Shown: one piece after another, positions 1 to 16,100 of the stretch
Position numbering within the stretch: the stretch's first letter is position 1
Layout of the letters: each line of letters opens with the position of its first letter
Assembly: GCA_028045305.1 (NCBI GenBank)
Contig: JAOFTV010000003.1
Span: 62,001-126,000, forward strand
From: Opitutales bacterium
GTDB lineage: Bacteria; Verrucomicrobiota; Verrucomicrobiia; Opitutales; Seribacteraceae
DNA length: 64,000 nucleotides
Direction: 5' to 3'
Program-made: the position numbers and the translations under genes
The notes under the pieces: generated by a model
What the model saw: the letters and a program-made list of their open reading frames with translations, nothing else
The model's database searches: none
Told to the model about the DNA's origin: nothing

Positions 1-886
1 TAGAAACACGTTCAACCAGGTCGGGTTTGGCGGAGTGATATGTAATGGACAGAATACTTTCATTAAAAAGTGTGATCTTTAAAAATTTGTCCTTTCCGTA
101 AAAGTCATTGTACCAGGGGGCTTGCAGGTGCTTGCTTCTCATGAAGTAAAAAGTGAAGAAAAAATCACTCGCTCTTACAGGTTTCCCATCGCTGTATCTG
201 GCGTCATTATCCAATTGAAAATAGACAGTGCGTCCATCTTCTCCCAAGGCCCAACGCTTTGCCAATCCCGGGTAATAACCATCAGAATTTGGATGTGTCA
301 TCACGAGACCAACCCCATTATAATCAAGTAAATATCGACGAAAGGCTCCGTTGGCGTCGGGTCCAATGGTTCGCAAGGTTCTCGGAAAGTCAGACATGAA
401 AGTTTTCCAGGTTCCACCCCTTATTGCATCTGGTGAAGAAAACTCCTCCTCTCGTGAACCGTTCTCCCATTGCAAGTTCTTGGGCAATTGATCGATGTTT
501 GAAATCACAAATGCATCTTTGTGCTGCAGATAAAATTCTAAAACCGCTTCAGTACAGTGGTCCAATAAGGGGTGAGCATTACCCAATTCATCCAGGAGAC
601 CGGAAGATTCTTCGGATAGAGAAATATCCAAGGATTGATTCTTGTGAATACTCGGAACCGAAGACCCGATCTCTTTTCTGAATTCATTAGCAAACTCGCG
701 AGCCAGTTCCCTAATGTAAGCACGGTCTGCTTTGTTTAAAGCTGGGCTTGTTTCGATGGGTCCGTCGCTTGAGTTAACTGGCTCTGGTCTTTTAAGAGTA
801 TTGTCTTCACACCCTCCAAGAAAAGAAAGGAGATATAATGCCGTGAAGATAAATGGTCGTGAATGTTTCTTTTTTGGAATGTTCAT
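1..886 (-). CDS. Peptide ABC transporter solute-binding lipoprotein, YejA-like (partial)
   Basis: This open frame has no stop before the window edge, so only the first 295 residues are visible and it is absent from the ORF track. The start ATG overlaps the stop of the YejE-like gene (ATGA). It begins with a lipoprotein signal ending in LSFLGGC, followed by an acidic linker. From about residue 155 the SBP_bac_5 fold appears: a 'YPGLAKRWALGEDGRTV' stretch, then 'YSDGKPVRASDFFFTF', the usual hallmark of oligopeptide-binding proteins. The linker of about 130 residues before the binding domain is longer than usual. It presumably delivers peptides to the YejB/YejE permeases encoded just upstream in the same operon. 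Confidence 0.85.
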   Translation of the reverse strand, partial: MNIPKKKHSRPFIFTALYLLSFLGGCEDNTLKRPEPVNSSDGPIETSPALNKADRAYIRELAREFANEFRKEIGSSVPSIHKNQSLDISLSEESSGLLDELGNAHPLLDHCTEAVLEFYLQHKDAFVISNIDQLPKNLQWENGSREEEFSSPDAIRGGTWKTFMSDFPRTLRTIGPDANGAFRRYLLDYNGVGLVMTHPNSDGYYPGLAKRWALGEDGRTVYFQLDNDARYSDGKPVRASDFFFTFYFMRSKHLQAPWYNDFYGKDKFLKITLFNESILSITYHSAKPDLVERVS

Positions 887-1959
887 TGGTAGGTAGAAAA
901 TTTTTTGGGATCAAAAGCTTCGCGGACTGCTTCGCCAACAAAGGTGACCAAGGTAAGAGTAAGCACTAGTGCCCCAGCGGCAGAAGCTACGATCCAAGGG
1001 GCAACCCTCAGGTTGTTCACTCCCTGCTTGAGCAATTCTCCCCAACTCGGAGTAGGGGCTGGTAAACCATAGCCGAGAAAGTCCAGTGCAGTGATAGAAG
1101 ATATGGCGGCGGCTACAGTAAAGGGAGCAAAAGTAACCAAAGTGGAAATAACATTGGGCAGAAGATGCCGAAAAATAATCCTGCACGGACCCGCACCAAT
1201 TACCTCAGCCGATGCAATGTAGTCTTTGGCCTTTTCCTTGTAAACCGCAGAACGAACATAATAAGTCATTCCCGTCCAACTAAACAAAACCATGATCATA
1301 AGGAGAGCGGATATTTGCCATCCACTACCCCACCATCCGGGCATTACCGAAGCAAGAATTATAACCATGTAGAGAAAAGGAACATTTGACCAAATCTCAA
1401 CGAGTCGCAAACCAAACATATCTGCCTTACCCCCGAAGTAGCCAAGGATCGAACCAGCGGCAATAGCCAATAGATAGGTCAAGAAAAGGTAGCCAAGTGC
1501 AAAAGTAAAAGCGATTCTGAATCCGTAAACCAGGCGGGCAAGTACATCTCTTTCGGTTTTGTCTGTACCCAAGATGTGCCTCGTTTTCCAGTCAGGGGCA
1601 GAAAACCCAGTGGAATCGGTATCTCGATAGTCCATCTCATACGGATCATAGGGGATAGGTGGTAAAAGAACCCAGTTTCCCCCTGCCTGGTCGTGGAAAA
1701 TCTGTTTAAGTTCCCGATAATTTGTTTCATATCCGTAATTCAATCCGAATTGCTCACCCGGAATTTGAGCTCCATAAGAAGGGAAAAAATATTCGCCTTC
1801 ATAACATACGATCAAAGCCCGTTTATTTACCAGCAACTCAGCTCCCAAACTTAGTAAAAAAGCTAAAAATAAGAATAAGAAAGCCCAATATCCCCGACGC
1901 AACGATCGAAAACGGATGAGTTTTCGCTGGATCAAGGGGTTAAGCTGCATTTTGATCAT
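883..1959 (-). CDS. yejE: Peptide ABC transporter permease, YejE-like
   Basis: Inner-membrane permease of the YejE branch of BPD_transp_1. A first membrane helix near residues 20-38 is followed by the long periplasmic loop typical of YejE, including 'YEGEYFFPSYG' and 'LPPIPYDPYEMDY', then 'HILGTDKTERDVLARLVYGFR'. The EAA permease signature lies around 'ASAEVIGAGPCRIIFRHLLPN'. I use the ATG at 1959 instead of the longer ORF-track start, because it overlaps the stop of the upstream yejB-like gene as ATGA and gives a normal N-terminus. It also overlaps the downstream solute-binding gene by ATGA, so the three are probably translationally coupled. Confidence 0.88.
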   Translation of the reverse strand: MIKMQLNPLIQRKLIRFRSLRRGYWAFLFLFLAFLLSLGAELLVNKRALIVCYEGEYFFPSYGAQIPGEQFGLNYGYETNYRELKQIFHDQAGGNWVLLPPIPYDPYEMDYRDTDSTGFSAPDWKTRHILGTDKTERDVLARLVYGFRIAFTFALGYLFLTYLLAIAAGSILGYFGGKADMFGLRLVEIWSNVPFLYMVIILASVMPGWWGSGWQISALLMIMVLFSWTGMTYYVRSAVYKEKAKDYIASAEVIGAGPCRIIFRHLLPNVISTLVTFAPFTVAAAISSITALDFLGYGLPAPTPSWGELLKQGVNNLRVAPWIVASAAGALVLTLTLVTFVGEAVREAFDPKKFSTYQ

Positions 1960-3380
1960 CCCTCGAAACGTACTCTTGGGTCGGCCCAGGCAACGAGTGC
2001 ATCTGCTAGGACATTTCCTAGTAACATTAAACAAGCGGACAATCCGAGCACTCCCATGACCACCGGATAATCCCGGTCGATCACCGCGTTAAATCCTAAA
2101 AGACCAAACCCATCGATATCAAAAATCGTTTCAATTAGAAAGGAGCCGGTGACAAATAAGGTGACCTGATGCCCGACATTCGTGGCCAGAGGAACAAGCG
2201 AATTGCGAAGGGCATGTCGACGAACGGCCTGAGAAAAGGAAAGCCCCTTGGCCATTGCAGTCCGAACATAATCAGCTGCCAAGTGATCAAGCAGATGATT
2301 CTTCATCAACATAGTGACAAAAGCAAAGCCACCTATCAAATAACAAGCGAGCGGCTGAACCGTATGGGCAAACAAATCAAGAGTTTGATCCCAAAGGCTC
2401 ACTTCATTTACCCTATTTGAAGTCAATCCACTCATTGGTAACCAGTCCAGTTGAACGGAAAAGAAAAGCAACAAAAGAGACCCCAAGGCATATCCTGGAA
2501 TGGCATATCCCAAAAAAACCAAAACGGATGAAAAATCATCTGACCATGTCTTGTGCTTTAAGGCTTTAAAAACGCCCAAAGGAATGCAAACGATATAGGT
2601 CAATAAGAAGGTAAGGACTCCAAAATAAGTCGACACTGGTAGGCGTTCAGCGATAACAGATACAACTGGCTCTCCAAACCGAATAGATTTCCCCAGGTTT
2701 CCCTGAATTACACCGGCATACTTTTCCAGGTATAGTTCGGCGACAGGTACAGCAAACTTCCCACGCTCTGCATCACACATTCGAACCTGCCAATTTCCTA
2801 AGAGAGATGACCGGTTAACGATCTCTACGGTTCCGTTGTTTAATCTTCGCAAATTTACAAGTTCGCGGGCTCCTTCAATCCATCCCGTGTTTTCATCGAC
2901 CTCCCAGCCATCAATTCGCCCATCCCCATTCCCATCCAATTCTGTAAAAGGTATGGCTCGCTTAAGATGCTGGGGTACTTCTTCCCGGCTAATATAGCCA
3001 TCTCCGTCCCAGTCCAAACGTAAAATATTAAAATCAGGCAGACTAATCCGCTCGCTTGTCTCTATTTTATTATTCGAGAACTGAACCTCTCGGAATTCGA
3101 TTTCTCGAGGCTTTAATCCTAACCAAATTAAATAGGCTTCCCAGATCGGTTTATCAAATCCATACAGCCTTTTCATCTGCAATAACTGCTCGCCCGAGAG
3201 GGCCTGCTCAGTCCCTGGACTACGACCGCCACCGCCATCTTCACCCACTTGTTGCATCTGCATCATCGCTTGTTCGATCGGACCACCCGGAGCCATGCGG
3301 GTCAAAGCAAATACCATCAAGCTAATCCCCACCAAGACGGGAGGAATCAAAAGCAACCTACGAATGAAGTAATCGCGCAT
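1956..3380 (-). CDS. yejB: Peptide ABC transporter permease, YejB-like, with EF-hand insertion
   Basis: The start 'MRDYFIRRLLLIPPVLVG' is the normal YejB/OppB N-terminus; the ORF-track start 18 codons upstream is a GTG. The protein has 474 residues, about 110 more than E. coli YejB. The extra length lies in the periplasmic loop after TM1 (about residues 89-223) and carries two canonical EF-hand loops, DWDGDGYISREE (123-134) and DGNGDGRIDGWE (149-160). After the insertion the YejB core resumes at 'GVIQGNLGKSIRFGEPV' and ends with the family's 'GLLGFNAVIDRDYPVVMG'. It pairs with the YejE-like gene to form the membrane channel. No ATPase is seen on this strand; it may lie beyond the window or be supplied by the divergent fused OppDF. 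Confidence 0.88.
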   Translation of the reverse strand: MRDYFIRRLLLIPPVLVGISLMVFALTRMAPGGPIEQAMMQMQQVGEDGGGGRSPGTEQALSGEQLLQMKRLYGFDKPIWEAYLIWLGLKPREIEFREVQFSNNKIETSERISLPDFNILRLDWDGDGYISREEVPQHLKRAIPFTELDGNGDGRIDGWEVDENTGWIEGARELVNLRRLNNGTVEIVNRSSLLGNWQVRMCDAERGKFAVPVAELYLEKYAGVIQGNLGKSIRFGEPVVSVIAERLPVSTYFGVLTFLLTYIVCIPLGVFKALKHKTWSDDFSSVLVFLGYAIPGYALGSLLLLFFSVQLDWLPMSGLTSNRVNEVSLWDQTLDLFAHTVQPLACYLIGGFAFVTMLMKNHLLDHLAADYVRTAMAKGLSFSQAVRRHALRNSLVPLATNVGHQVTLFVTGSFLIETIFDIDGFGLLGFNAVIDRDYPVVMGVLGLSACLMLLGNVLADALVAWADPRVRFEG

Positions 3381-3511
3381 GTGGTGAAAAGAAAATTCAT
3401 ACTTCGAATCTCTGATCGGAGTAAAGACAAACACCCAAAACCTGATAATTTATCCATCCTTTTGCTTGCCAACTCCGAATACCTGTCGCGTACTTTGTCG
3501 GAAACAACTTT

Positions 3512-5167
3512 ATGCACTCAAATTCTTCATCCAATAAACAAACCCACTTGGTCGGGCTAATCGGTTTATTGTGCTTGGCTTGGTTGCTGCAGGGATGTTC
3601 TCAACCTTCCAATGTAGAGACTGCACTGGATAAAGGCATCCTCCACTTTGGCTTGGGAGCAGAACCCCAGCACCTCGACCCACATCTCGCCACCAGTGTG
3701 GCCGCCCACAATATTTTGTCTGCATTGCTCGAGGGCTTGGTTAGCGAACACCCCAAAACACTCAAACCCGTTCCTGGAGTCGCCCATCGATGGGAACAAT
3801 CAAAGGACGGAAAGACCTACATTTTTTATCTTCGGAAGGATGCCCATTGGAGCAACGGTGATCCCCTAACTGCCCATGATTTTGTCTACTCTTTTCGCCG
3901 CATCCTTAATCCAAACCTGGGTGCTCAATATGCTTCCATGCTTCATCCTTTAAAAAATGCCAGGCTCTATCATGAGGGAAAAAAGACCTGGGAAGAGGCA
4001 AAGGTTGGAGCAGTAGCGACAGATGATTATATTCTAGAAATTACTTTGGAACACTCCATTCCCTACTTCTTGGAATTACTCAACCATTATTCCTGGTTTC
4101 CCGTACACCGCCCCACCCTGGAAAAATTTGAAGCCTTTGAAAAAATGGGCACTCCATGGACTAAGCCAGGCAACTTTGTGGGCAATGGGCCTTTTCGGTT
4201 GATTAACCATCAAATTAACTCGGTCATCTCGGTGGGGAAAAACGAACATTATTGGGATGCTTCATCCGTTCAACTAAAGGGCATACGCTTCTATCCGATT
4301 GAGGCCGTGGATACAGAAGAACGGGCTTATCGTGCGGGCTTTCTGCACTTAACCCAGAGCGTATCCGCCGACCGCATTGATTTTCTAAAAGAAAAGTATC
4401 CCAAAGAACTGCACTTCGAGCCCTATCTCGGCACTTATTTTTATCGTTTCAACTTGAAGTCTCCACCTTTTGACGATCTGCGGGTCCGCCAAGCCTTTAG
4501 CTTGGCAATCAATCGTCAACGCCTAGTCGACAAGGTACTAAAGGGGGGACAGTCGCCCGCGAATACCTTTACACCTCCAGGCACAGGAGGATTTTATCCC
4601 AAGCCCCAATTTCTTTATGACCCACAAAAGGCCAAGCAGTTGCTGGATTCATATTTATCTGAAAAAGGATTGGAAAGGTTGCCCCCAGTCGAATTAACCT
4701 ACAACACTTCAGAAGGACACAAGAAAGTGGCCGAAGCTCTACACGGTATGTGGAAAGAAGCTCTTGGAGTGGAAATTCGGCTACTCAATATGGAGTGGAA
4801 AGTCTTTCTCTCTACCGTTTCCAAAGGTGAATTTTCATTGGCTCGGGCAGGATGGATTGGAGATTATGTCGATCCACATACTTTTCTCCATATGTGGCGG
4901 TCGGGTGAAGGGCTCAATATGACTGGCTGGGCAAATGCACCCTACGACCAAGCCTTGAAACTTGGAGAAACCTCAAATTCCGAGAAGGAGCGCTGGGAAA
5001 ACTTTCAAAAATGCGAGGATTTATTGGCTATGGAATTCCCCGTCCTCCCCCTCTATTTTTATGTACACCTAACTTTGCGTCACCCCACTGTTCGGGGTTG
5101 GCACCCAACCCTTCTCGATCACCATCCCTATAAACACGTTTACTTAAGTAAGGAGGAATCCCCTTGA
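3512..5167 (+). CDS. oppA: Oligopeptide ABC transporter solute-binding lipoprotein, OppA-like
   Basis: A 551-residue SBP_bac_5 protein. The lipoprotein signal ends in LLQGC, so it is probably anchored to the membrane facing the periplasm. Family hallmarks follow: 'GAEPQHLDPHLATS', 'HRWEQSKDGKTYIFYLRKDAHWSNGD' split around the 'LTAHDFVYSF' box, and 'DDLRVRQAFSLAINR'. It is the first gene of a four-gene plus-strand operon (binding protein, two permeases, fused ATPase), divergent from the YejB-like gene across about 130 bases. Its length is normal for OppA. Substrate is inferred to be oligopeptides; murein peptides or other ligands cannot be excluded. Confidence 0.92.
   Translation: MHSNSSSNKQTHLVGLIGLLCLAWLLQGCSQPSNVETALDKGILHFGLGAEPQHLDPHLATSVAAHNILSALLEGLVSEHPKTLKPVPGVAHRWEQSKDGKTYIFYLRKDAHWSNGDPLTAHDFVYSFRRILNPNLGAQYASMLHPLKNARLYHEGKKTWEEAKVGAVATDDYILEITLEHSIPYFLELLNHYSWFPVHRPTLEKFEAFEKMGTPWTKPGNFVGNGPFRLINHQINSVISVGKNEHYWDASSVQLKGIRFYPIEAVDTEERAYRAGFLHLTQSVSADRIDFLKEKYPKELHFEPYLGTYFYRFNLKSPPFDDLRVRQAFSLAINRQRLVDKVLKGGQSPANTFTPPGTGGFYPKPQFLYDPQKAKQLLDSYLSEKGLERLPPVELTYNTSEGHKKVAEALHGMWKEALGVEIRLLNMEWKVFLSTVSKGEFSLARAGWIGDYVDPHTFLHMWRSGEGLNMTGWANAPYDQALKLGETSNSEKERWENFQKCEDLLAMEFPVLPLYFYVHLTLRHPTVRGWHPTLLDHHPYKHVYLSKEESP
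5150..5156 (+). promoter_or_regulatory. Strong Shine-Dalgarno site deciding a TTG start
   Basis: AAGGAGG lies 7 bases before the TTG at 5164. It sits inside the end of oppA and identifies TTG, overlapping the oppA stop as TTGA, as the oppB start. Most other genes in this window lack such a clear site. Confidence 0.75.
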
Positions 5168-6084
5168 AGAAATTTGTTCTCTCCCGGGTTTTACAAGCTA
5201 TTCCGACCTTATGGGTTATTGCCACGCTTACCTTCTTTATGACCCGATATGCTCCGGGTGGTCCCTTTGATGCAGAAAAGGCAATTCCTCAGGAGATTAA
5301 AGTTAAGCTGGAAAGTCATTTTGGGCTCGATCGTCCATTGTTTGATCAGTACCTGCTCTATTTAAAAAATCTCTTGCGTGGCGACCTTGGTCCATCATTT
5401 AAATATTCGGGTTGGGAAGTCTCGGAATTAATCGCTACCGCCTTTCCGGTTTCCTTGACTTTGGGAGTTTTATCGTTGGGGATCGCCCTGTTTATCGGCA
5501 TACCCGCAGGGATCATGGCCGCTCTGCGAAAAAACACTTGGTTGGATTACCTGCCTATGAGTCTGTCCATGGCTGGAATTTGCTTACCCACCTTTGTCCT
5601 TGGTCCATTGCTCATTTACATTTTCTCCACCCAGTTGGGCCTCTTTCCCCCACTTGGATGGTACGGTCCGTCGGACTGGTTCCTTCCCTCTTTCACACTT
5701 GGGTTGTTTTATGCCGCCTATGTTGCCCGCCTGACCCGGGCTGGAATGCTTGAAACATTGCAGCAAGATTATGTGCGCACCGCCCGTGCCAAAGGGGCCA
5801 CTCCTTGGCGTGTTGTAACCCGACATGCCTTGCGTGGAGGACTCCTCCCGGTCGTCACATACTTAGGGCCCGCGTTTGCTGGTCTGGTCAGTGGATCTTT
5901 TGTCATTGAAAGTATATTTTTCATACCTGGACTGGGAAAATTCTTTGTTACTGCAGCCTTCAACCGTGATTACACCATGGTTCTGGGAACTGTGCTTTTT
6001 TATGCCAGCTTGATTATTTTGCTCAACTTACTGGTCGACTTACTTCAGGCATGGATTGACCCCAAAGCCCGACAAACTAGATGA
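5164..6084 (+). CDS. oppB: Oligopeptide ABC transporter permease, OppB-like
   Basis: A 306-residue BPD_transp_1 permease. The N-terminus 'VLSRVLQAIPTLWVIATLTFF' followed by 'MTRYAPGGPFD' is diagnostic for OppB/DppB. The EAA loop is 'RTARAKGATPWRVVTRHALRGG', which docks the ATPase, and the end 'IDPKARQTR' is typical. The TTG start is supported by a strong Shine-Dalgarno site and overlaps the oppA stop by 4 bases; its own stop overlaps the next gene as ATGA. Six membrane helices are expected. Confidence 0.93.
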   Translation: MKKFVLSRVLQAIPTLWVIATLTFFMTRYAPGGPFDAEKAIPQEIKVKLESHFGLDRPLFDQYLLYLKNLLRGDLGPSFKYSGWEVSELIATAFPVSLTLGVLSLGIALFIGIPAGIMAALRKNTWLDYLPMSLSMAGICLPTFVLGPLLIYIFSTQLGLFPPLGWYGPSDWFLPSFTLGLFYAAYVARLTRAGMLETLQQDYVRTARAKGATPWRVVTRHALRGGLLPVVTYLGPAFAGLVSGSFVIESIFFIPGLGKFFVTAAFNRDYTMVLGTVLFYASLIILLNLLVDLLQAWIDPKARQTR

Positions 6085-6941
6085 GTTTAGAAACATCATC
6101 CTCCTTGGGTCGAGATGCTTGGTTGCGCTTACGGGCAAACCGAATGTCCATGATTAGCTTGTTTATTTTGATTGGCATTGCCTTCGTCTCCATCTTTGGT
6201 CCTGCCTTATCTTCATACGATTACGATCAGCAAAACTTGGATCGTGTATTTGAAAGCCCCGGAAAAGACCATATTTTTGGTACCGACAACCTTGGGCGTG
6301 ACCTTTTTGCCCGAACCACTTATGGAGGGAGAATATCTTTGGCTGTTGGATTGCTCGCTACCGTGGTATCTTTGGTAATTGGGGTGAGTTATGGGATGTT
6401 TTCTGGCTACATAGGGGGCCGCATCGATACATGGATGATGCGAGCTGTGGATGTTCTTTATGCCCTACCTTTCACCATTTTTGTGATCTTATTGATGGTT
6501 TTATTTGGAAGAAACTTCCTCTTGCTTTTCATCGCGATTGGAGCCGTGGAATGGTTGACAATGGCTCGCATCACCCGGGCACAGACCATGAATTTGAAAA
6601 AATCTGAATTTATCGAAGCAGCCCGGGCCTTAGGCTATTCGCATGGTCGCATTCTATTCCGACACCTTCTTCCAAATTTGATCGGTCCAATTATAGTTTA
6701 TGCGACCCTGACTGTTCCCGCAGTTATGCTATTAGAAGCCGTACTCAGTTTTCTCGGACTTGGTATACAGGCGCCGATGAGCTCATGGGGCAGCCTAATC
6801 AAGGAAGGGGCAGAGAAAATGGATGCCGCTCCCTGGCTTCTCTTGTTTCCGGGAATCTTTTTCTGCCTTTCTTTATTTGCACTTAATTTTTTAGGAGATG
6901 GTCTTCGAGATGCCCTCGATCCAAAATCGTCCAAGGACTAA
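6081..6941 (+). CDS. oppC: Oligopeptide ABC transporter permease, OppC-like
   Basis: A 286-residue partner of OppB. The OppC_N-type start 'DAWLRLRANRMSMISLFIL' is followed by 'HIFGTDNLGRDLFARTTYGGRIS', the near-invariant OppC/DppC box, and by the EAA motif 'EAARALGYSHGRILFRHLLPN'. The C-terminus 'LGDGLRDALDPK' is also canonical. Its start overlaps the oppB stop (ATGA), and the ATPase gene begins 4 bases after its stop, so stoichiometric expression within one operon is likely. Confidence 0.93.
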   Translation: MSLETSSSLGRDAWLRLRANRMSMISLFILIGIAFVSIFGPALSSYDYDQQNLDRVFESPGKDHIFGTDNLGRDLFARTTYGGRISLAVGLLATVVSLVIGVSYGMFSGYIGGRIDTWMMRAVDVLYALPFTIFVILLMVLFGRNFLLLFIAIGAVEWLTMARITRAQTMNLKKSEFIEAARALGYSHGRILFRHLLPNLIGPIIVYATLTVPAVMLLEAVLSFLGLGIQAPMSSWGSLIKEGAEKMDAAPWLLLFPGIFFCLSLFALNFLGDGLRDALDPKSSKD

Positions 6942-6945
6942 AATC

Positions 6946-8643
6946 ATGGGAAATTTGGATATACAAAACTTAAAAGTATCCTTTCACACCCGCGAAGGAA
7001 TTATCCATGCTGTCGATGGTGTTGATCTTTCAATCAAGCCAGGAGAGATTGTTGGCTTGGTCGGGGAGTCAGGTTCGGGCAAGTCCGTAACCTGCAATTC
7101 CGTGCTCAAACTTCTTCCTGTCCCTCCTGCTCGGATTGAGAAAGGGCAAATTGAGTGGTCAGGAAAAGACCTTATCGATCATGACGAACAAAATATGCAG
7201 GCAATCCGAGGCAAAGAAATCTCCATGATCTTTCAAGATCCTATGAGTTGCTTGAACCCTTACCTCTCGGTGCTTGAGCAGGTTGCTGAACCCCTAGTAA
7301 TTCATGGAATGGCCAGCCTTGAGGATGCTAGAAAACAGGCCAGTGAAATGCTTGTCAACGTGGGCGTGCAAAGAGTTGTGGATCATCCCCATGCCTATCC
7401 GCATGAATTTTCTGGAGGGATGCGCCAACGGGCGATGATTGCCATGGCCTTGGTAACAAAACCCTCACTCTTACTTGCGGACGAACCCACTACCGCCTTG
7501 GATGTAACCGTCCAAGCTAAGGTGTTAAGTATCCTTAAAACATTGTGTACCGACTTAGGCGTAAGCGTTCTTTTTGTTAGTCATGACCTCGGACTGGTCG
7601 CCGAACTGGCCGACCGCGTGGTAGTGATGTATCGAGGAAAAGTAGTCGAGCAAAACCATACAGGTTCAATTTTCTCAAACCCTCAACACCCCTATGTGAA
7701 AGCCTTGATCGCTTGTCGACCGACATTGGAAAGTAACCCTGTCCGATTGCCTACGGTGGATGATTTCATGAACCCAAAAACGGGGAAAGAAGAGGCCCTT
7801 GAGAAACTGGTAGCCCCATCCCTAAATTTAGATTCCCAAGAAACTCTGCTTCAAGTCGAGAATCTAGTGGTTGAATTTCCAACCGAAGATGGTCCTGTTC
7901 GGGCAGTTGATGGAGCAAGCCTCATGATTCGTAAAGGATCGACTCATGGTTTGGTCGGAGAGTCAGGATCGGGGAAAACGACTTTAGGCAGGTCCATTCT
8001 CCACTTGGCTCAATTGATGTCGGGAAGCATTCTTTATCAGGGAAAACCTATCAATCTGGATCACCCTGATGATCGAAGTAAATTCCGCAAATCTATGCAG
8101 ATTATTTTTCAGGATCCTTACGCCTCCCTAAATCCCCGCCTTACCATTGAGCAAACCCTGCTCGAACCCATGAAGGTTCATGGTATTGGGAGTTCTCGTA
8201 AGGAGCGCATCGAGCGCGTGATTAACCTATTGGAGGAAGTTGGGTTGGGAGAGGAATATCTCCACCGCTATCCTCATGAGTTCTCCGGAGGGCAGAGACA
8301 AAGAATTTGCGTCGCACGGGCATTAACCACCGAGCCGGAGTTTATTGTTTGTGACGAATGCGTGAGTGCTATGGATGTGTCTGTACAAGCCCAGGTGCTC
8401 AACTTACTACGATCTCTTCAAGCCTCTCGCAACCTGACCTACCTTTTTATTTCTCACGATTTGGGCGTGGTCAAATTTATGTCCGATGAAATTTCCGTTA
8501 TGCAAAACGGAAAAATTGTTGAGAACGGATTAGCAGATGATCTTTATCGCAGCCCAAAATCAGATTATACTCGAAAGCTTCTCAACTCCATTCCCTTAGC
8601 TAATCGATCTGCAAATTTCCAAATTAATCGTCCGTCGGTTTAA
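6946..8643 (+). CDS. Fused oligopeptide ABC transporter ATPase, OppD-OppF
   Basis: Two complete ABC ATPase domains in one 565-residue chain, corresponding to OppD then OppF. Domain 1 has Walker A GESGSGKS, signature FSGGMRQR and Walker B LLLADEPTTALD; domain 2 has GESGSGKTT, FSGGQRQR and the Walker B variant FIVCDECVSAMD. Both retain the catalytic Glu. I use the ATG at 6946, just after the oppC stop and preceded by an AAGGA-like site, because the ORF-track start lies inside oppC. The last 20 bases overlap the convergent transglutaminase-like gene. The fusion supplies both nucleotide-binding sites for the OppBC channel and could also serve the divergent Yej permeases. Confidence 0.93.
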   Translation: MGNLDIQNLKVSFHTREGIIHAVDGVDLSIKPGEIVGLVGESGSGKSVTCNSVLKLLPVPPARIEKGQIEWSGKDLIDHDEQNMQAIRGKEISMIFQDPMSCLNPYLSVLEQVAEPLVIHGMASLEDARKQASEMLVNVGVQRVVDHPHAYPHEFSGGMRQRAMIAMALVTKPSLLLADEPTTALDVTVQAKVLSILKTLCTDLGVSVLFVSHDLGLVAELADRVVVMYRGKVVEQNHTGSIFSNPQHPYVKALIACRPTLESNPVRLPTVDDFMNPKTGKEEALEKLVAPSLNLDSQETLLQVENLVVEFPTEDGPVRAVDGASLMIRKGSTHGLVGESGSGKTTLGRSILHLAQLMSGSILYQGKPINLDHPDDRSKFRKSMQIIFQDPYASLNPRLTIEQTLLEPMKVHGIGSSRKERIERVINLLEEVGLGEEYLHRYPHEFSGGQRQRICVARALTTEPEFIVCDECVSAMDVSVQAQVLNLLRSLQASRNLTYLFISHDLGVVKFMSDEISVMQNGKIVENGLADDLYRSPKSDYTRKLLNSIPLANRSANFQINRPSV

Positions 8644-9478
8644 CCCGGACCACTACTTCAAATTCACTGGGCTGAGGCCCGAAATAAGAACCGGTAACTG
8701 GAGCCACATCACGATAGTCTCTACCCGTTCCTAAAATCACATAAGTATCGTCGACCACCCGGTTGTTGGTTGGGTCCAACCCAAACCACCCATGTCCATC
8801 AACCATCACCTCCAGCCAGGCATGAGAAGCTTCAGATCCGCGCATCTGACGATCCCTCGTTGAATCAAAAAAATAGCCACTTACATAGCGCGCTGGGATA
8901 CCGAGGCAGCGGCACAAAGCAAGTGCAGCGTGAACAAAGTCCTGGCAAACTCCACGGCGGATTTTGAGTACTTCATTAGCATGTGTCTCCACTGTTGTCG
9001 TGCTTTTACAATATTCAAAGTTTTGATAAATAAAACACATCACTTGAAAAGCGGTTTGAAAAACGTCCGTTGAATTTGCCCGAATATCAACCGCTGTCCG
9101 CCAGACCTCCGGGTTAATCTCAACGAAGGTAGAACTCTGCAGATAATCGCGGTATTCTGGAACTCCTCCCATTTTAGATAAAGTGGACATGTTTACGCCG
9201 TATGGAAAATGATCAAAATTCACCCGAGAATTTGTTTCAACTACCGAGCGTACCTCGATGGCCAATTTTTGATGTTCTTCTGCCAATTCGAAATAATGTA
9301 CTATGTTCCCATTTAAATCCAAATAGCTTTTCGGACGACAGATTGGTAAAATCGAGATGGTGGAGGAGACACACTTTTGCCAGTCGTTACTCAACGGGTG
9401 CAACCTTAACTCGTTATAGCTTTGCGTGACCGGACTTGGATACCGGTAACTCGTCCGATGGAAAATGTACAACCGCAT
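8624..9478 (-). CDS. Transglutaminase-like protein with bacterial transglutaminase N-terminal region
   Basis: The N-terminus 'FHRTSYRYPSPVTQSYNELRL' matches the Bact_transglu_N region. The transglutaminase-like core follows with an apparent catalytic triad: Cys178 in RRGVCQDFVH, His219 in EASHAWLEV and Asp235 in GLDPTNN. No signal peptide is seen, so the protein is probably cytoplasmic. It lies downstream of the alpha-E and ATP-grasp genes. The family and order are widespread in bacteria, and comparative studies of amidoligases have proposed roles in peptide synthesis or modification; the real substrate is unknown. The end overlaps the oppDF gene by 20 bases in convergent orientation. Confidence 0.85.
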   Translation of the reverse strand: MRLYIFHRTSYRYPSPVTQSYNELRLHPLSNDWQKCVSSTISILPICRPKSYLDLNGNIVHYFELAEEHQKLAIEVRSVVETNSRVNFDHFPYGVNMSTLSKMGGVPEYRDYLQSSTFVEINPEVWRTAVDIRANSTDVFQTAFQVMCFIYQNFEYCKSTTTVETHANEVLKIRRGVCQDFVHAALALCRCLGIPARYVSGYFFDSTRDRQMRGSEASHAWLEVMVDGHGWFGLDPTNNRVVDDTYVILGTGRDYRDVAPVTGSYFGPQPSEFEVVVRVKPTDD

Positions 9479-9527
9479 GGCTGGCGACAGGTCTTCTAGG
9501 TAACGACAGTTTCAACCCTATTGGGAA

Positions 9528-10514
9528 TCACTGCTGTTGCTGAGCTTGGGCTAGTTGGGCGGCATCACTCTCGCCCAGGCTTTTAATTTCGGATGGTAAC
9601 AAGACATAGGTCTCAAATACCCGTTGGCCAATTTCAATCAGATTGGTCTGCAGTTCATCGAGAGTCTCGTGCAAACCTTTCTCCATGACTTGCTCCAAGT
9701 TGGTAAAATTAACCATAGCCAAGGCACTGCCGGTCAACCGTTCCGCCTCATTATAAAATGTACCGGAAGGAGAACCCGATATTGTATGCAAGCTATGATC
9801 AATGGTTCGTATACAAAAACGAATCGATCTAGGAAAGTCTTCGGAGAACAGAAGAAAGTTGGCTACATTCTGTAAGGATAGGTTTCCACGAAATTGTTGA
9901 CGGAAGGCGGATAAGGCAATGCAGCATCGCAGAACAGACATTAAATCAGACCGGGAAGGTGCCTTGTTCCGAAAATTCAAGGTGTCAAGCATCCGGCTTG
10001 TTTGATCAGTCCGCTCCAAATATTTTCCTAAAGTTAAAAAGCGCCAGCCTTCTCCATGGGGAATAGTGGCATCGGACAAGCCCTGAAAAACCAGGGAGAA
10101 ACGGGAGATTCGATCGAGCAAATGATCCGATCCCTGCTCATAAAGTTCTTCCGCCCCTCCATCGCGAAAGAACAAATAAATGTTATTCAATTCCAGCCAA
10201 AGTTCTTCAGATAATTGATCCCTTACCATCCGAGCATTTTCACGTGCCATATAAATAGAGGATCGGATGGAGTTTCCATAGGCTTCTGAAAATATCAATG
10301 TTTTGCCAATCTTACGCCCCCCAACCTCTTCCAGGTGCACTTCGTCTATGCAAATGGATTTTAGAACAGGCTGCCAAAATTCTTTCAGTTGTTCATCGTT
10401 ATCTGCATACTCCAAGGCTAAGCTTTGGTTTACCTGAATCATCCTGGCCATACCCTCAGCCCGTTCGATGTACCGGCTCATCCAATATAAATTATCTGCA
10501 ACTCGAGAAAGCAT
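9528..10514 (-). CDS. Alpha-E domain protein (DUF403)
   Basis: The start 'MLSRVADNLYWMSRYIERAE' is the signature of the alpha-E family, an all-helical domain found almost only beside circularly permuted ATP-grasp proteins. I choose this ATG at 10514 because the ORF-track start lies inside the upstream gene. The body contains family-like 'LGKYLERTDQTSRMLD' and 'SYMAREN'-type helices ('IYMARENARMVRDQLSEE'). Length (328 residues) is normal. It sits 4 bases after the ATP-grasp gene and before the transglutaminase-like gene. Its biochemical role is not established; a scaffold or carrier function for the neighbouring amidoligase is only a suggestion. Confidence 0.88.
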   Translation of the reverse strand: MLSRVADNLYWMSRYIERAEGMARMIQVNQSLALEYADNDEQLKEFWQPVLKSICIDEVHLEEVGGRKIGKTLIFSEAYGNSIRSSIYMARENARMVRDQLSEELWLELNNIYLFFRDGGAEELYEQGSDHLLDRISRFSLVFQGLSDATIPHGEGWRFLTLGKYLERTDQTSRMLDTLNFRNKAPSRSDLMSVLRCCIALSAFRQQFRGNLSLQNVANFLLFSEDFPRSIRFCIRTIDHSLHTISGSPSGTFYNEAERLTGSALAMVNFTNLEQVMEKGLHETLDELQTNLIEIGQRVFETYVLLPSEIKSLGESDAAQLAQAQQQQ

Positions 10515-10518
10515 GAGC

Positions 10519-11973
10519 TTAAAAATCCTTAAGTACCCAAGTGTCTTTACTTCCACCACCTTGGGAAGAATTGACCACCAGAGAACCTTTCCTTAGTGCT
10601 ACGCGGGTCAGACCGCCAGGTACGATTTCTACATCCTCGCCGTAAAGAATGAAAGGACGTAAATCAACATGTCTACCAGCTATACCTTCTTCGCAAAAAG
10701 TAGGGTGACGGGAAAGAGAAATGATGGGTTGGGCAATATATTCTCTGGGATTGGATGTAATGAGCCGGGCAAATTCCTCCCTCTCCTTGGCTGTGGATTG
10801 ATTGCCAATGAGCATACCATATCCTCCGGATTCGTTGGCTGCCTTGACCACCAGGTTTTCAAGGTTTTCTAAAACATGCGACCGGTCCGATTCCCGCCAA
10901 CACAAATAAGTGGGCACATTCTGAAGAATCGCATCCTCATCAAGATAGTATTTAATCATCTCTGGAACATAAGCATAAGTCACCTTGTCATCGGAAACTC
11001 CCGTTCCGACGGCGTTGGCAAGGGCAACATGTCCACGAAGGTATGCATCCATTAATCCGGAAACTCCCAGCATTGAATCTTTACGAAATACCAAAGGGTC
11101 CAGGAATTCATCGTCTAACCTTCGATAGATCACATCGACCTGAACCAACCCGCGGGTCGTTCTCATGTATACAAAAGAATCAATCGTAATCAGGTCTTTG
11201 CCCTCCACAATTTCTATGCCCATCTGTCTAGCCAGAAAGGTATGTTCGAAATAGGCACTATTGTGAACTCCAGGAGTCAGCAAAACGCAAACGGGTTTTT
11301 GTGACTTTCGAGGAGAAAGGTGCTCCAAAGTTCTTAAGAGCAAGTCGGGATAAACTTCTACGGGACGAACTGACATACCTCCAAAAGTTTGAGGAAAGGT
11401 ACGCTTGATAATTTCCCTGTTTTCCAAGAGATATGATGCACCAGATGGGCAACGTGCATTGTCTTCCAAAACCAAGTAATTTCCCTGGTCATCACGAATC
11501 AAATCAGTCCCGCAAATATGAGCATATACCTCTTGAGGGGGGTCAAATCCGATCATCTCCGGACGAAAATTTTTCGATGACCGAACAATCTCCTCAGGAA
11601 TAATCCCATCCTTTATGATCTTTCCTTCGTGGTAAATATCATTGAGGAATAAATTTAGGGCGATGATTCGTTGCCTAAGGCCACGTTCGATCACACTCCA
11701 TTCGCTCTCTGGAATTACCCGAGGAATCGGGTCAAAGGGGAAAATTCTTTCAGTCCCCCCTTCTTCTCCATAGACCGTAAAGGTAATACCATGCTCAAGA
11801 AAAGAAGTGTCTGCTTGTTGCCTCCTTTCAGAAATTTCCGATTCTGTCAGGCTGTCCAATCTTTTAAAAATTCTTTCATAATGAGGGCGTGGATTTTCCC
11901 CCTCATTATCGATGAACATTTCATCAAAGAAATGATCAACCGAATAATTTTTAAATTGGGAGTGAGAATTCAT
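10519..11973 (-). CDS. Circularly permuted ATP-grasp type 2 protein (DUF404/DUF407)
   Basis: A 484-residue member of the family defined by '[22 protein letters not shown]' near the N-terminus, '[26 protein letters not shown]' in the middle and '[15 protein letters not shown]' plus '[30 protein letters not shown]' at the end. These carry the permuted ATP-grasp nucleotide-binding elements. The protein is expected to form amide or peptide bonds using ATP. It is the first gene of the three-gene set with alpha-E and transglutaminase-like proteins. The start ATG follows about 70 bases of AT-rich sequence that presumably holds the promoter. Confidence 0.92.
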
Positions 11974-12046
11974 TAAAATATTTTACAAAAGAAAGAGTTC
12001 AAGTCTTGCGCCACTCTGTCTAATTGGAAAGTTCATTGTCACTTTT

Positions 12047-12928
12047 TTATTCTTTTTTGGCCGATTTCGTCTGCCCAACCGATCTTTGGAAAGAAAAGAG
12101 GAATTGTTGAGCAAGTCCTGCGTGTTGGCCAAAATGGATTCCAGCAAATTCCTGCATTTGTTGCATGGTCCATCCTTTCATCCCGTATTGTCTTTCTAAA
12201 GCTTGTAAAATCCAGGTGTCGATGGGGAACGCTTGGCTTTTTCCAGCACCAAATAAAAGTACGCAATCCGCCACCTTGGGTCCCACGCCAGGAAGTTCCA
12301 TAAGACAAGACCGGGCTTCTTTGTACTTCAACCCACTTACCTCCTCTAACCAGCCATGCCGTTGGCTAAGAAATTGGGCGACACCAACCAAGTACTTAGC
12401 ACGGTACCCCATACCCAACTTTCTCGCTTCAGTTTCAGACAATTTACTCAGCCTTTCCCAGCCGGGAAAAGCGAATAAATCCTCGCCCAAATCTTCTCCA
12501 AAATTTAAGTGGATGCGATGACGAAGTTGCTTAATTTGAGGAATGCTCTTGGCGGAACTTAAAAGAAAAACCAATAAGGTTTCATCGATTGGTTGCCTGA
12601 GCACTCTCAAGCCGGAGAATTTCTTGATTGCTTGATCCAATGACAGATCACTGCGCCAGGGCAAAGCATCAATAGCTCTGCAGTAAGAATCATCCAGCCA
12701 CAAATAATGTTCCAATTCTTTTTTGCCAATGGGAATAGAACCAGATGATTTCCATTGTAATTGTTCGTTCTCCCAACGCAAATGAACAACTGCCCTACGA
12801 ATAACTCCGATCCATTGATTTTCACCTTGTGAAGACCATGAAAAGCTTTGTCCTCCAAGCAAAGATTCCTCAAGACCAAGTAGATTAATTAAGTCCGCAG
12901 AACCGATCGACTGCCAAGAAGCGGTCAT
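12047..12928 (-). CDS. 8-oxoguanine DNA glycosylase, OGG1 type
   Basis: The N-terminal OGG_N region has 'SLLGGQSFSW', the counterpart of the eukaryotic GQSFRW motif, and the HhH-GPD core reads 'LPGVGPKVADCVLLF'. Lys218 (Schiff base) and Asp237 are 19 residues apart, exactly as K249 and D268 of human OGG1. It should excise 8-oxoguanine opposite cytosine and nick the strand. I use the ATG at 12928, after the stop of the upstream secreted-protein gene; the longer ORF-track start would overlap that gene by 77 bases and adds no conserved sequence. OGG1-type enzymes are uncommon in bacteria compared with Fpg/MutM. Confidence 0.88.
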   Translation of the reverse strand: MTASWQSIGSADLINLLGLEESLLGGQSFSWSSQGENQWIGVIRRAVVHLRWENEQLQWKSSGSIPIGKKELEHYLWLDDSYCRAIDALPWRSDLSLDQAIKKFSGLRVLRQPIDETLLVFLLSSAKSIPQIKQLRHRIHLNFGEDLGEDLFAFPGWERLSKLSETEARKLGMGYRAKYLVGVAQFLSQRHGWLEEVSGLKYKEARSCLMELPGVGPKVADCVLLFGAGKSQAFPIDTWILQALERQYGMKGWTMQQMQEFAGIHFGQHAGLAQQFLFSFQRSVGQTKSAKKE

Positions 12929-12947
12929 GATATTGGTGCATCCCAAT

Positions 12948-13442
12948 TTACTTGGACCACAAAAAACTTTGATTCGATGCAAGCGTAGATCCTTGACCGT
13001 CGCACAGGCGTAATCGCCAAGCAAGCGGCTTGAGAGATCGGTCTGGCCAATGCTCCCCGGTCAATCCGACAAAGACTTCTTTGCCAAAAAGATTTAAATC
13101 AGTGATAGGTACTTTTTGGGTTTTAGAAACAGGGTCGGCAGAGGTCACCCAATCTAAAATCCATTGAGAACGAATTGGTAATTCTTGTTTTGCCCCACCC
13201 ACTTTTACTACAAAATAAAATCCATCTCGGCTTTTAGGCTTTGAGCGACAGTAAACTTTCCCACCTGTATATTCCCGTCCAGTAAAGTACTCTGGAATAC
13301 GTTTGAAGTCATAAACCGTGAAAAATTCTTGGTTTCTAACTTCTAATTTTAGCTCCCCAAAACAGAAAGGGTTAATAAAAGATAAACAAATTAAGATCGT
13401 AGGGAGGACAATTATTATTCCCCGCATCCCCAGTCTGTTCAA
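12948..13442 (-). CDS. Secreted protein of unknown function
   Basis: I do not recognise the family. The 164-residue product starts with a basic residue-containing n-region and a hydrophobic stretch ending near 'FINPFCFGE', a plausible signal peptide. The mature part is small and probably beta-rich, with 'REYTGGKVYCRSKPKSRDGFYFVVKVGG' and a C-terminal 'WPDRSLKPLAWRLRLCDGQG'; two cysteines could form a disulphide. It lies 3 bases after the small basic protein gene and 19 bases before the OGG1 gene, so the three are probably co-transcribed even though a functional link is not obvious. Confidence 0.7.
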   Translation of the reverse strand: MNRLGMRGIIIVLPTILICLSFINPFCFGELKLEVRNQEFFTVYDFKRIPEYFTGREYTGGKVYCRSKPKSRDGFYFVVKVGGAKQELPIRSQWILDWVTSADPVSKTQKVPITDLNLFGKEVFVGLTGEHWPDRSLKPLAWRLRLCDGQGSTLASNQSFLWSK

Positions 13443-13445
13443 AAA

Positions 13446-13757
13446 TTACTCCTCAGAGGAGGCAGGTGTATCTGTCTGCTCAACAGTAGTTGCAGGCGTT
13501 TTCGCAGCTTTAGAGTCTGGACCAAGAACATCAGCAGTAGTTGCTTTGTCCGAAGCCTTGACCTCAGCTTCGGCAGCGGTTGGTTCTTCCTTGGAGGCGG
13601 GACGCTTAGGCACAGACTTGGCAACTTTCTTGGCCTTGACCGGTTTTACCTTAGTGGACGTTTTCTTGGGGGCGGCTTCGACAAGCGCCTTTTTGCGGCG
13701 GGCCAAATAGGCAGCACGACGACGGCGCTTGATCAATTTATTATACTGTTTGCTCAT
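13446..13757 (-). CDS. Small protein with basic N-terminus and acidic Ala/Thr-rich tail
   Basis: A 103-residue protein of strongly biased composition. The first 30 residues are rich in Arg and Lys ('KRRRRAAYLARRKKA'), the middle alternates Lys/Pro/Val as in histone H1-like tails, and the last 50 residues are acidic and rich in Ala, Thr and Ser. It is probably a nucleic-acid or ribosome-associated small protein, but no domain can be named. The ORF on the opposite strand over the same region is a compositional shadow. It is the first gene of the group leading to the OGG1 glycosylase. Confidence 0.7.
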   Translation of the reverse strand: MSKQYNKLIKRRRRAAYLARRKKALVEAAPKKTSTKVKPVKAKKVAKSVPKRPASKEEPTAAEAEVKASDKATTADVLGPDSKAAKTPATTVEQTDTPASSEE

Positions 13758-13817
13758 GTTGGAAGGAAGAACCTAAATTAATAAGAAAGAGTTGGCAAGC
13801 TCAGGGAATGGACAGGT

Positions 13818-14903
13818 TCAAGCTATCTCAACGGGCTTACCCGAACGGGCAGACTCGTAGGTAGCATCAATGATCTTCATCAATGCAAGGGCTTGATCGG
13901 GTGTATTTAAAGGGGCTTCTTTGCCCTCTAAAGTTAAAGCGAAATTCTGGGCTGATCGGATTCTTCCCATATCTTCGCATTCCTCAACCACCACCGAGCG
14001 ATTGACCGAACGACCGTGTTCTTGAAAATAAAGTTCACAATCATCTAAAGCAGTAGCATCAATTCCATCCCGCCCGAATAGCCTTCGAACCATTCCACCA
14101 GCCTGAGATCCTTGGAATGTAACCGAAACTTCTTCGCGTTTGTTCATTTCCGCCCAAGACACTTGAAAACTTAATACCTGGCCGGTATCAAAACGAACAA
14201 AGCCATGGGCTGCACTTTCAACATCGGTCACACCATCAGCCACATCGGGAATCCCCCACGGTCCCTTGAATCCCTTATCTTGGATAAAGTCATTAAAGGT
14301 CTGAGCAAGCACATGAGTGGGCTTGGGATAATCCATGTAAAAGAGAGCCAAATCAATCATGTGTAAAAGATCGATCAAAGGGCCCCCGCCCGACTGAGCC
14401 TGGTTGGTAAACCATCCACCAAAGCCGGGAATTCCCGTTCGACGAATCCATTTGGCCTGAGCGGAATTAATCGTTCCCAACTGGCCGGACTCAATGTAAC
14501 TTCGCATAGCATAAGATTCCGGCCGTGCACGGTTATTGAAGTTGAACATCAATGTCTTACCCGCATCATCTGCCGCCTGTTTCATCTCTGCTACTTCCAG
14601 GGCATTGAGGGCAGGTGGTTTTTCGCAAAAAACATGTTTTCCTGCACGCAAAGCCTGTAATGCAAGAGGCATGTGTGTACGATTGGGCGTAATAATACTA
14701 ATTGCGTCCAAGTCCGACAATTCATCCAACATCTTTTGAGAATCTCCAAAGACATGAGATGCTCCGTAAGTATGAGCCGCCTTCTTGGCAGCTTCTTGGT
14801 TCATATCGCAAATGGCAATAATTTCGCCACCGCCTGCTTTAAATCCAGGGGCATGATATTGCAACATTCCACCGGCACCAATGATTCCTATTTTTTGAGT
14901 CAT
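13818..14903 (-). CDS. Gfo/Idh/MocA family oxidoreductase
   Basis: A 361-residue NAD(P)-dependent dehydrogenase. The N-terminal Rossmann fold starts 'KIGIIGAGGMLQYH', and the family's 'FCEKPPALNALEVAEMKQA' carries the EKP motif whose Lys is catalytic. The C-terminal alpha/beta domain includes 'GGGPLIDLLHMIDLALFYM', corresponding to the substrate-binding D..H region. No secretion signal is seen, so it is probably cytoplasmic. It is followed upstream by a second dehydrogenase and a TIM-barrel isomerase, a combination typical of sugar, inositol or sugar-acid catabolism. The substrate cannot be read from sequence. Confidence 0.9.
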   Translation of the reverse strand: MTQKIGIIGAGGMLQYHAPGFKAGGGEIIAICDMNQEAAKKAAHTYGASHVFGDSQKMLDELSDLDAISIITPNRTHMPLALQALRAGKHVFCEKPPALNALEVAEMKQAADDAGKTLMFNFNNRARPESYAMRSYIESGQLGTINSAQAKWIRRTGIPGFGGWFTNQAQSGGGPLIDLLHMIDLALFYMDYPKPTHVLAQTFNDFIQDKGFKGPWGIPDVADGVTDVESAAHGFVRFDTGQVLSFQVSWAEMNKREEVSVTFQGSQAGGMVRRLFGRDGIDATALDDCELYFQEHGRSVNRSVVVEECEDMGRIRSAQNFALTLEGKEAPLNTPDQALALMKIIDATYESARSGKPVEIA

Positions 14904-14930
14904 AAAATATTAATAGATAAAGGCTAGAAT

Positions 14931-16100
14931 TTACTTAGGAATAGAGGGAAATTTGACCCACTTTTGCTTTGAGTTGGAGCTTTTGACCACGGTCTCGATA
15001 AACGCCATGCCAATAATACCATCACGAATATCCGGATAATCATAACCTGACTTACGGGGAAACTTTCCATTCACTTCATCACGAATTGCCACGGATACGG
15101 AGTTGTAAACATTAGCAAAGGCTTCAATAAATCCTTCCGGATGCCCAAAAGGTATACGCGTATGTGAGGCTGCATCTCCAGAAACATAACTGTTTCCACG
15201 TCGGTAAACCTGCCGAGGAGCACGGGCATCCTTAACGATCAAATCATTGGGCTCTTCCTGGTGCCACTCAATTGACTTCTTGGTTCCATATACCCGAATA
15301 TTAAGGTTATTCTCATCTCCATTGGAAACTTGAGATGCATAAATAATTCCCCGAGCACCTCCTTTAAAGCGAACCAAAACATTGCCATCATCATCCAATT
15401 TTCTCCCCGGAATATTTACGGAAAGATCGGCACATAATGAATCGATCTCCAAACCGCTTATATAATGAACGAGGTTTTCCGCGTGGGTTCCAATATCTCC
15501 CATACAGTTGGAAATACCTGCAACTTTCGGATCGGCTCGCCAGTTAGCAATCGATTTGTCTTCTCCAGTCAAAGCGGTGATGGCATAGCCCTGAGGGTAT
15601 TCGCATACCACCTTGATGATTTTTCCAAGATCTCCTTTTTTCACCATCTGACGTGCAAGCTTGACCATGGGGTAGCCTGTATAGTTGTGGGTGAGGGCAA
15701 ATACCTTTTTGCTTTTATGAATAATTTTTTTCAATTCCCTAGCCTCCGCCAGAGTGAAGGTGGCTGGTTTGTCACAGATTACATTGATACCCGCTTCCAA
15801 AAAGGTCTTAGCGACTTCGAAGTGCAAATGATTGCGCACCACAATAGATACAAAGTCTATTCTTTCTCCCAAAGGCAAGGCACTTTCCTTTTGGGCCATT
15901 TCCTTGTAGGAGAAATAAACTTTCGACGAGTCGACAAAAAAGTCCTTACCCGACAAGGCTGATTTTTTGGGGTCAGAGGAAAAGGCCCCCGCCACCAGTT
16001 CAATTTGCCCGTCCAAAGCGGCCGCCCGGCGATGAACACCTCCAATAAAAGCCCCCCGGCCTCCTCCAACCATACCCATTCTTAATTTTCTATTTTTCAT
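14931..16100 (-). CDS. Gfo/Idh/MocA family oxidoreductase
   Basis: A second, diverged dehydrogenase of 389 residues. The Rossmann motif is 'MGMVGGGRGAFIGGVHRRAA', and the EKP motif is changed to CDKPATFTLAEARELKK, a common functional variant. 'NCMGDIGTHAENLVHYISG' marks the C-terminal substrate domain with the conserved D..H pair. It closely resembles the planctomycete and verrucomicrobial subfamily with the 'RGAFIG' start. It lies 12 bases downstream of the isomerase gene and 27 bases upstream of the other dehydrogenase, so the three probably form one operon for carbohydrate oxidation and isomerisation. Confidence 0.9.
   Translation of the reverse strand: MKNRKLRMGMVGGGRGAFIGGVHRRAAALDGQIELVAGAFSSDPKKSALSGKDFFVDSSKVYFSYKEMAQKESALPLGERIDFVSIVVRNHLHFEVAKTFLEAGINVICDKPATFTLAEARELKKIIHKSKKVFALTHNYTGYPMVKLARQMVKKGDLGKIIKVVCEYPQGYAITALTGEDKSIANWRADPKVAGISNCMGDIGTHAENLVHYISGLEIDSLCADLSVNIPGRKLDDDGNVLVRFKGGARGIIYASQVSNGDENNLNIRVYGTKKSIEWHQEEPNDLIVKDARAPRQVYRRGNSYVSGDAASHTRIPFGHPEGFIEAFANVYNSVSVAIRDEVNGKFPRKSGYDYPDIRDGIIGMAFIETVVKSSNSKQKWVKFPSIPK

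Follow-up and report, generated by a model that had tools for sequence, protein, structure and literature searches.

The window analysed here, a 64-kb stretch of Opitutales DNA, opens inside a peptide importer operon read from the minus strand, of which two permease genes and the beginning of a gene for a solute-binding protein (SBP) are contained:

1959..3380, minus strand: first gene of the operon, encoding a YejB-like permease subunit (474 aa) for a type I peptide ABC importer
883..2034, minus strand: YejE-like second permease subunit, with PF00528 and 257 bits against NCBIfam YejE PRK15021
1..886, minus strand: third gene of the operon, of which the window contains the part encoding the N-terminus of the SBP, a YejA-like lipoprotein of 733 aa

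The permease frame starts with an ATG at position 3380 and matches PF00528 (BPD_transp_1) over residues 267-472 (E=2e-32). The YejE-like gene overlaps the end of yejB, and its start codon is uncertain; the SBP gene runs past the window edge and is found in full at L047 (8685-10886). The gene order yejB-yejE-SBP-ATPase-ATPase gives the locus the make-up of a YejB/OppB/DppB-type operon, in which a second permease, an SBP and ATPases accompany the first permease. But is the first gene a true YejB? Its top NCBIfam model is YejB PRK15133, with 227.9 bits against a cut-off of 445, and the other leading match, Opp4B, likewise stays below its own cut-off; judged by the NCBIfam model, the permease is YejB-like and not YejB sensu stricto. 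The top PDB match is DppB 8z1v (E=1e-43). Like YejABEF, DppABCDF and OppABCDF, the system combines the common permease fold and a scoop after TM1 with two permeases, an SBP and two ATPases per operon. It departs from them in two places: the short post-scoop helix that runs straight to TM2 in E. coli DppB and YejB leads into a 135-residue domain in the window permease, and the lipoprotein that serves as SBP has an additional module at its N-terminus.

Divergent to the yej operon lies a second peptide importer operon (3512-8643, plus strand) encoding OppA, B and C and a fused double ATPase, a pairing retained in L048-L072. Downstream of the yej operon, L047 carries a candidate repeat-like lipoprotein of 741 aa (2582-4807, minus strand) with an EF-like stretch, DNNKDDLIDKDEYVAM.

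Place and architecture of the permease insert

The insert and the elements that locate it are as follows:

2712..3116, minus strand: whole insert, a beta-domain with a nested EF-hand pair (residues 89-223, 135 aa)
3168..3287, minus strand: scoop region PGGPIEQAMMQMQQ..GGGG..ALSGEQLLQMKRL, located after TM1 and before the short helix that precedes the insert
2877..3038, minus strand: EF-hand pair (about residues 115-168), absent as a block in L073-L076 and G053

The insert is missing from E. coli YejB and from insert-free members of the order. Aligned end to end, the insert-free homologue L144 and E. coli DppB (8z1v) place the scoop region and set the insertion site after TM1, the scoop and a short helix, immediately ahead of GDLG, the linker to TM2. 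An earlier sequence-only reading of this DNA had reported an insertion of about 135 residues at 2712-3116, after TM1 of a YejB-like permease; its extent proved exact, and its position is borne out by the alignment. The scoop motif of DppABCDF reaches into the cleft of the binding protein DppA and seals the cavity (PMC12136057). Together with the L144-DppB alignment, this role of the scoop suggests by homology that the insert is periplasmic and adjoins the site where the SBP docks.

The insert consists of two nested things, a beta-domain of ~80 residues and an EF-hand pair of ~52 residues inside one of its hairpins. In L073-L076 and G053, the flanking beta-domain is present without the ~52 residues that contain both EF loops. 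In the AlphaFold2 model, the insert has strands at residues 92-100, 107-113, 172-179, 185-187, 196-201 and 213-220, the second and third of which are separated by the EF pair. The pLDDT of the insert is about 71-84 except for one block at 58; the membrane part of the permease is modelled poorly, and the mean pLDDT is 60. The EF-less homologue L073 is predicted to form the same six strands (pLDDT 76). Foldseek returned no match of the beta-domain to a solved fold at E<=0.001, and with the full permease model only Dpp and Opp permeases pass, as expected. The EF-hand pair reported earlier thus takes up only about 52 of the 135 residues, and the remainder is a beta-domain also found without EF-hands. 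The nesting of the pair in a separable beta-insert had been overlooked in the earlier reading, as had the fact that the partner SBP changes along with it.

Across the Opitutales, the permease loop forms a graded series, from no insert (YejB of ~340 aa) to a beta-type insert without EF-hands and on to the beta-domain with the EF pair, which in the window's family gives a YejB of 474 aa.

Conservation and distribution of the EF-hand loops

The pair is made up of two loops:

2979..3014, minus strand: EF loop 1, DWDGDGYISREE (residues 123-134)
2901..2936, minus strand: EF loop 2, DGNGDGRIDGWE (residues 149-160), matching PS00018

Both have the 12 residues of paired EF-hand loops, with acidic or amide ligands at positions 1, 3 and 5 and an acid at position 12. 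A chance motif can be rejected: the six frames of the window contain no further instance of the pattern, and two copies arose in 0 of 100,000 shuffles of either the protein or the insert. The Pfam models EF-hand_5 (E=4e-5, 23.3 bits) and EF-hand_1 (E=5e-5, 23.0 bits) match at the insert just below their curated cut-offs of 25.9 and 25.4 bits. In the AlphaFold2 model, built from 26 sequences only, short helices flank both loops, which contain strands 129-131 and 155-157 (pLDDT about 71-84). The loops had been called textbook EF-hands. Both are present, but the term is slightly too strong: EF1 has a Trp at position 2, which PROSITE PS00018 forbids and which is invariant among the EF-bearing relatives, and the gap between the loops is 14 residues against the usual ~25.

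In a set of 22 non-redundant inserts (<85% identity), positions 1, 5 and 12 of EF1 are invariant and position 3 is always D/N, while EF2 has invariant positions 1, 9 and 12 and D/N at 3 and 5. The ligand columns have a mean entropy of 0.19 bits and the other columns of the insert one of 1.27 bits (permutation P=0.0005; 0.0002 inside the EF region alone), and G071, G767 and G843 retain the ligands at 42-47% insert identity. As judged from these alignments, the EF loops are under selection, with ligands that are near-invariant while the remaining insert drifts. Could the insertion nevertheless be a decaying, functionless passenger, as its absence from most relatives might suggest? The reading frames are intact and the ligands near-invariant in 25 loci and in three divergent ones; every EF-bearing homologue keeps them, so that the degenerate loops which would have counted against the sequence-only reading are not what the homologues show. 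This conservation refutes a decaying insertion, to which we attach next to no credence.

The same loops bear on a further possibility, that the sites bind lanthanides in the manner of lanmodulin. Lanmodulin is the top PDB profile match of the insert (6mi5, E=1.3e-5; 8fns, 3.7e-5), and the Asp at position 9 of EF2 is invariant. EF loops are 12-13 residues apart in lanmodulin and about 25 in calcium-responsive EF proteins (PMC10232371); the 14 residues found here come close to the lanmodulin spacing and lie outside it. Lanmodulin is, however, a soluble, lanthanide-specific protein of four EF-hands with Pro at position 2, unlike the window insert: EF1 has Trp at this position throughout, and EF2 is variable, without Pro in the displayed sequences. 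Position 9 of EF1 is mostly Gln or Ser, the genome (77% complete) has no PQQ alcohol dehydrogenase above its cut-off, and the importer is of the peptide type. A lanthanide role is unlikely, and we rate it as very improbable. The small secreted EF proteins of Verrucomicrobiota, which make up the other matches of the profile in the phylum, share the ..LDxNxDGxIDxxE loop and the close spacing; these pairs stand alone or are fused to other secreted domains, and none is in a permease.

YejB with the EF pair is found in f1, the GTDB family of the window (26 genomes), and outside it in G071 (family f18) and in G767 and G843, which belong to f108, a family of another order than the window's. Within f1, the insert is of a different kind in some genomes and absent from others. 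Matches that carry a name are uncultured Opitutales, Opitutia or Verrucomicrobia, many of which we take, from their names, to come from marine surveys. A sample of 388 genomes from the phylum yielded no other full-length match to the EF-permease; the remaining matches scored weakly and covered only part of the length, and the ORFs read among them encode ordinary secreted EF-hand proteins. Most of the genomes compared are assemblies of uncultured organisms, many of them incomplete.

Within the window's own genus, G002-G004 (L122 and L123 being G003 and G004) have an insert-free YejB of ~345 aa; the operon was probably replaced, given that the SBP gene of G004 precedes yejB. In L116, L152 and L153 (G071, G767 and G843), a later loop of YejB is enlarged as well, by some 70-80 residues after ..WFPTGGF; this second insertion is confined to this EF-bearing clade and not found in the window's family. 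In the EF-less f1 loci L117-L121 and L129-L131, which have another beta-insert, the YejE frame is about 540-560 codons long; its last ~230 residues alone match the window YejE, and a large insertion lies on the N-terminal side.

Co-variation with the N-terminus of the binding protein

The partner SBP begins with the following module:

668..811, minus strand: SBP N-terminal module, with the lipobox Cys at 809-811, EDNTLKRP and the helix DRAYIRELAREFANEFRKEI (668-727)

SBPs from operons with the EF pair share two N-terminal features, C-[DEN]-x3-L-K-x-P and the charged helix RELAREFxxEF (for example DREFARELAREFGREFAREFARQ), and the module is unique within the window's genome. An HMM trained on the helices of f1 found the helix in 25/25 SBPs from EF-bearing operons of the first set and in 0/23 from EF-less ones (best EF-less score 1.0 bit). 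The held-out SBP of EF-bearing G071 scores 18.9 bits; the helix was predicted in advance for G767 and G843 and found in both (38.1 and 13.4 bits), while the HMM did not find it in the SBP of EF-less G572. In total, the helix is present in all 27 SBPs from EF-bearing operons, three of them outside the training set, and in none of 24 from EF-less ones, where G953, the same contig as L075, is not counted as a new EF-less case. The simpler motif C-[DEN]-x3-L after the lipobox gives the same division (27/27 against 0/22 EF-less SBPs with a recognisable lipobox). The helix itself is a prediction from sequence, and its amphipathicity is only moderate (shuffle P 0.03-0.19). In the EF-less f1 locus L119 (G008, 7000-15500), the N-terminal extension of the SBP (gene 3320-5482, plus strand) holds an EF-like loop of its own, KYDGDENGSLDKNET; neighbours of L119 have a coiled-coil-like stretch at this place.

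How often did the two traits change together? Trees were built from the YejB core, YejE and the SBP core, leaving out the insert and the SBP N-terminus. EF-less G053 is sister to the EF-bearing f1 clade (support 100/99), G071, G767 and G843 form a separate EF-bearing clade, and L073-L075 form an EF-less one. Trees that unite all EF-bearing operons are rejected at p-AU 8e-6 and 8e-5. The EF-bearing operons thus do not form one clade, and at least two changes are required, each of them matched by the SBP helix; EF pair and helix have therefore changed together at least twice. The main limit of this co-variation is that it offers two independent contrasts only, with which no sign test can reach significance, and the trees count changes without telling gain from loss.

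These counts also matter for the simplest competing explanation, in which the EF pair merely pins the fold of the insert, a long hairpin of the beta-domain, and has no special partner, so that its link to the SBP tether would be historical, the two having been lost or swapped jointly as parts of an operon type. Constant millimolar external calcium makes a structural role the default for such sites, just two joint changes are observed, and the beta-domain folds without EF-hands in the model, which makes the pair an optional extra. However, fold pinning by itself predicts no link to the N-terminus of an SBP encoded two genes on. Moreover, the YejB, YejE and SBP cores all put G053 beside the EF-bearing clade, so that a wholesale swap of the operon fails to explain how G053 comes to be without both traits. 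We regard this explanation as somewhat unlikely.

A calcium-loaded platform as the favoured reading

The joint appearance and disappearance of the EF loops and the SBP tether suggests a calcium-loaded docking site. Seawater calcium is steady at about 10 mM, and ordinary periplasmic EF-hands would accordingly always be loaded there. By sequence and model, the ~80-residue beta-domain projects immediately behind the scoop, the motif in contact with the binding protein, and the EF pair in its hairpin would be permanently calcium-loaded in seawater. The platform, stiffened by calcium, may then dock or hold the operon's own lipoprotein SBP through the N-terminal tether of the latter; the docking partner would most simply be the charged RELAREFxxEF helix, although this helix could face something other than the EF pair. 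An SBP anchored in this way would be kept beside its own permease and oriented for the hand-over of peptides. The earlier suggestion that the insertion stabilises contact with the SBP fares well to the extent that the co-variation of the SBP N-terminus points the same way, with the contact itself still putative. In favour of docking, the genes for the EF pair and the SBP lie close by in one operon; against it, EF-less relatives manage without the EF pair and without the SBP module.

The same reading had also proposed that calcium gates peptide uptake, such that binding and release would switch transport or the affinity of the SBP. EF-hands can act as switches, and the insert adjoins the scoop, the place at which a switch would be expected. 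Nothing in the data indicates gating, however: high and steady seawater calcium would keep the sites saturated, and no component of the operon is known as a calcium sensor. We consider gating improbable and favour a constitutively calcium-loaded, structural docking platform for the tethered SBP, at roughly even odds (about 0.5). The more specific version, in which the loaded EF pair is the receptor for a dedicated SBP-tether helix, and the two make up a calcium-dependent docking pair of Opitutales and a neighbouring order whose halves are gained or lost together, is put forward tentatively, as a possibility with the odds against it.

Are there precedents for such an arrangement? In the maltose importer, the P2 region of MalF is a large, beta-rich periplasmic insertion of the permease that contacts the SBP (PMC3150292). 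The window protein resembles it in having a periplasmic permease insertion whose position fits, the SBP contact being suggested here by co-variation. MalF-P2 occupies a different loop, has no EF-hands and serves a soluble SBP. For calcium-loaded paired EF motifs as a docking module, the precedent is dockerin-cohesin; the partner of dockerin is a cohesin, whereas the counterpart proposed for the EF pair would be a helix or tether.

Our searches of open-access papers brought up no ABC importer permease with an EF-hand, and the co-variation of the EF pair with the SBP tether is new here. If the EF pair does dock the tethered SBP, it would provide a natural calcium-dependent docking pair for engineering. 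It would also constitute a metal-dependent pairing of an SBP with its transporter, and would bear on how binding proteins find their own permease and stay with it.
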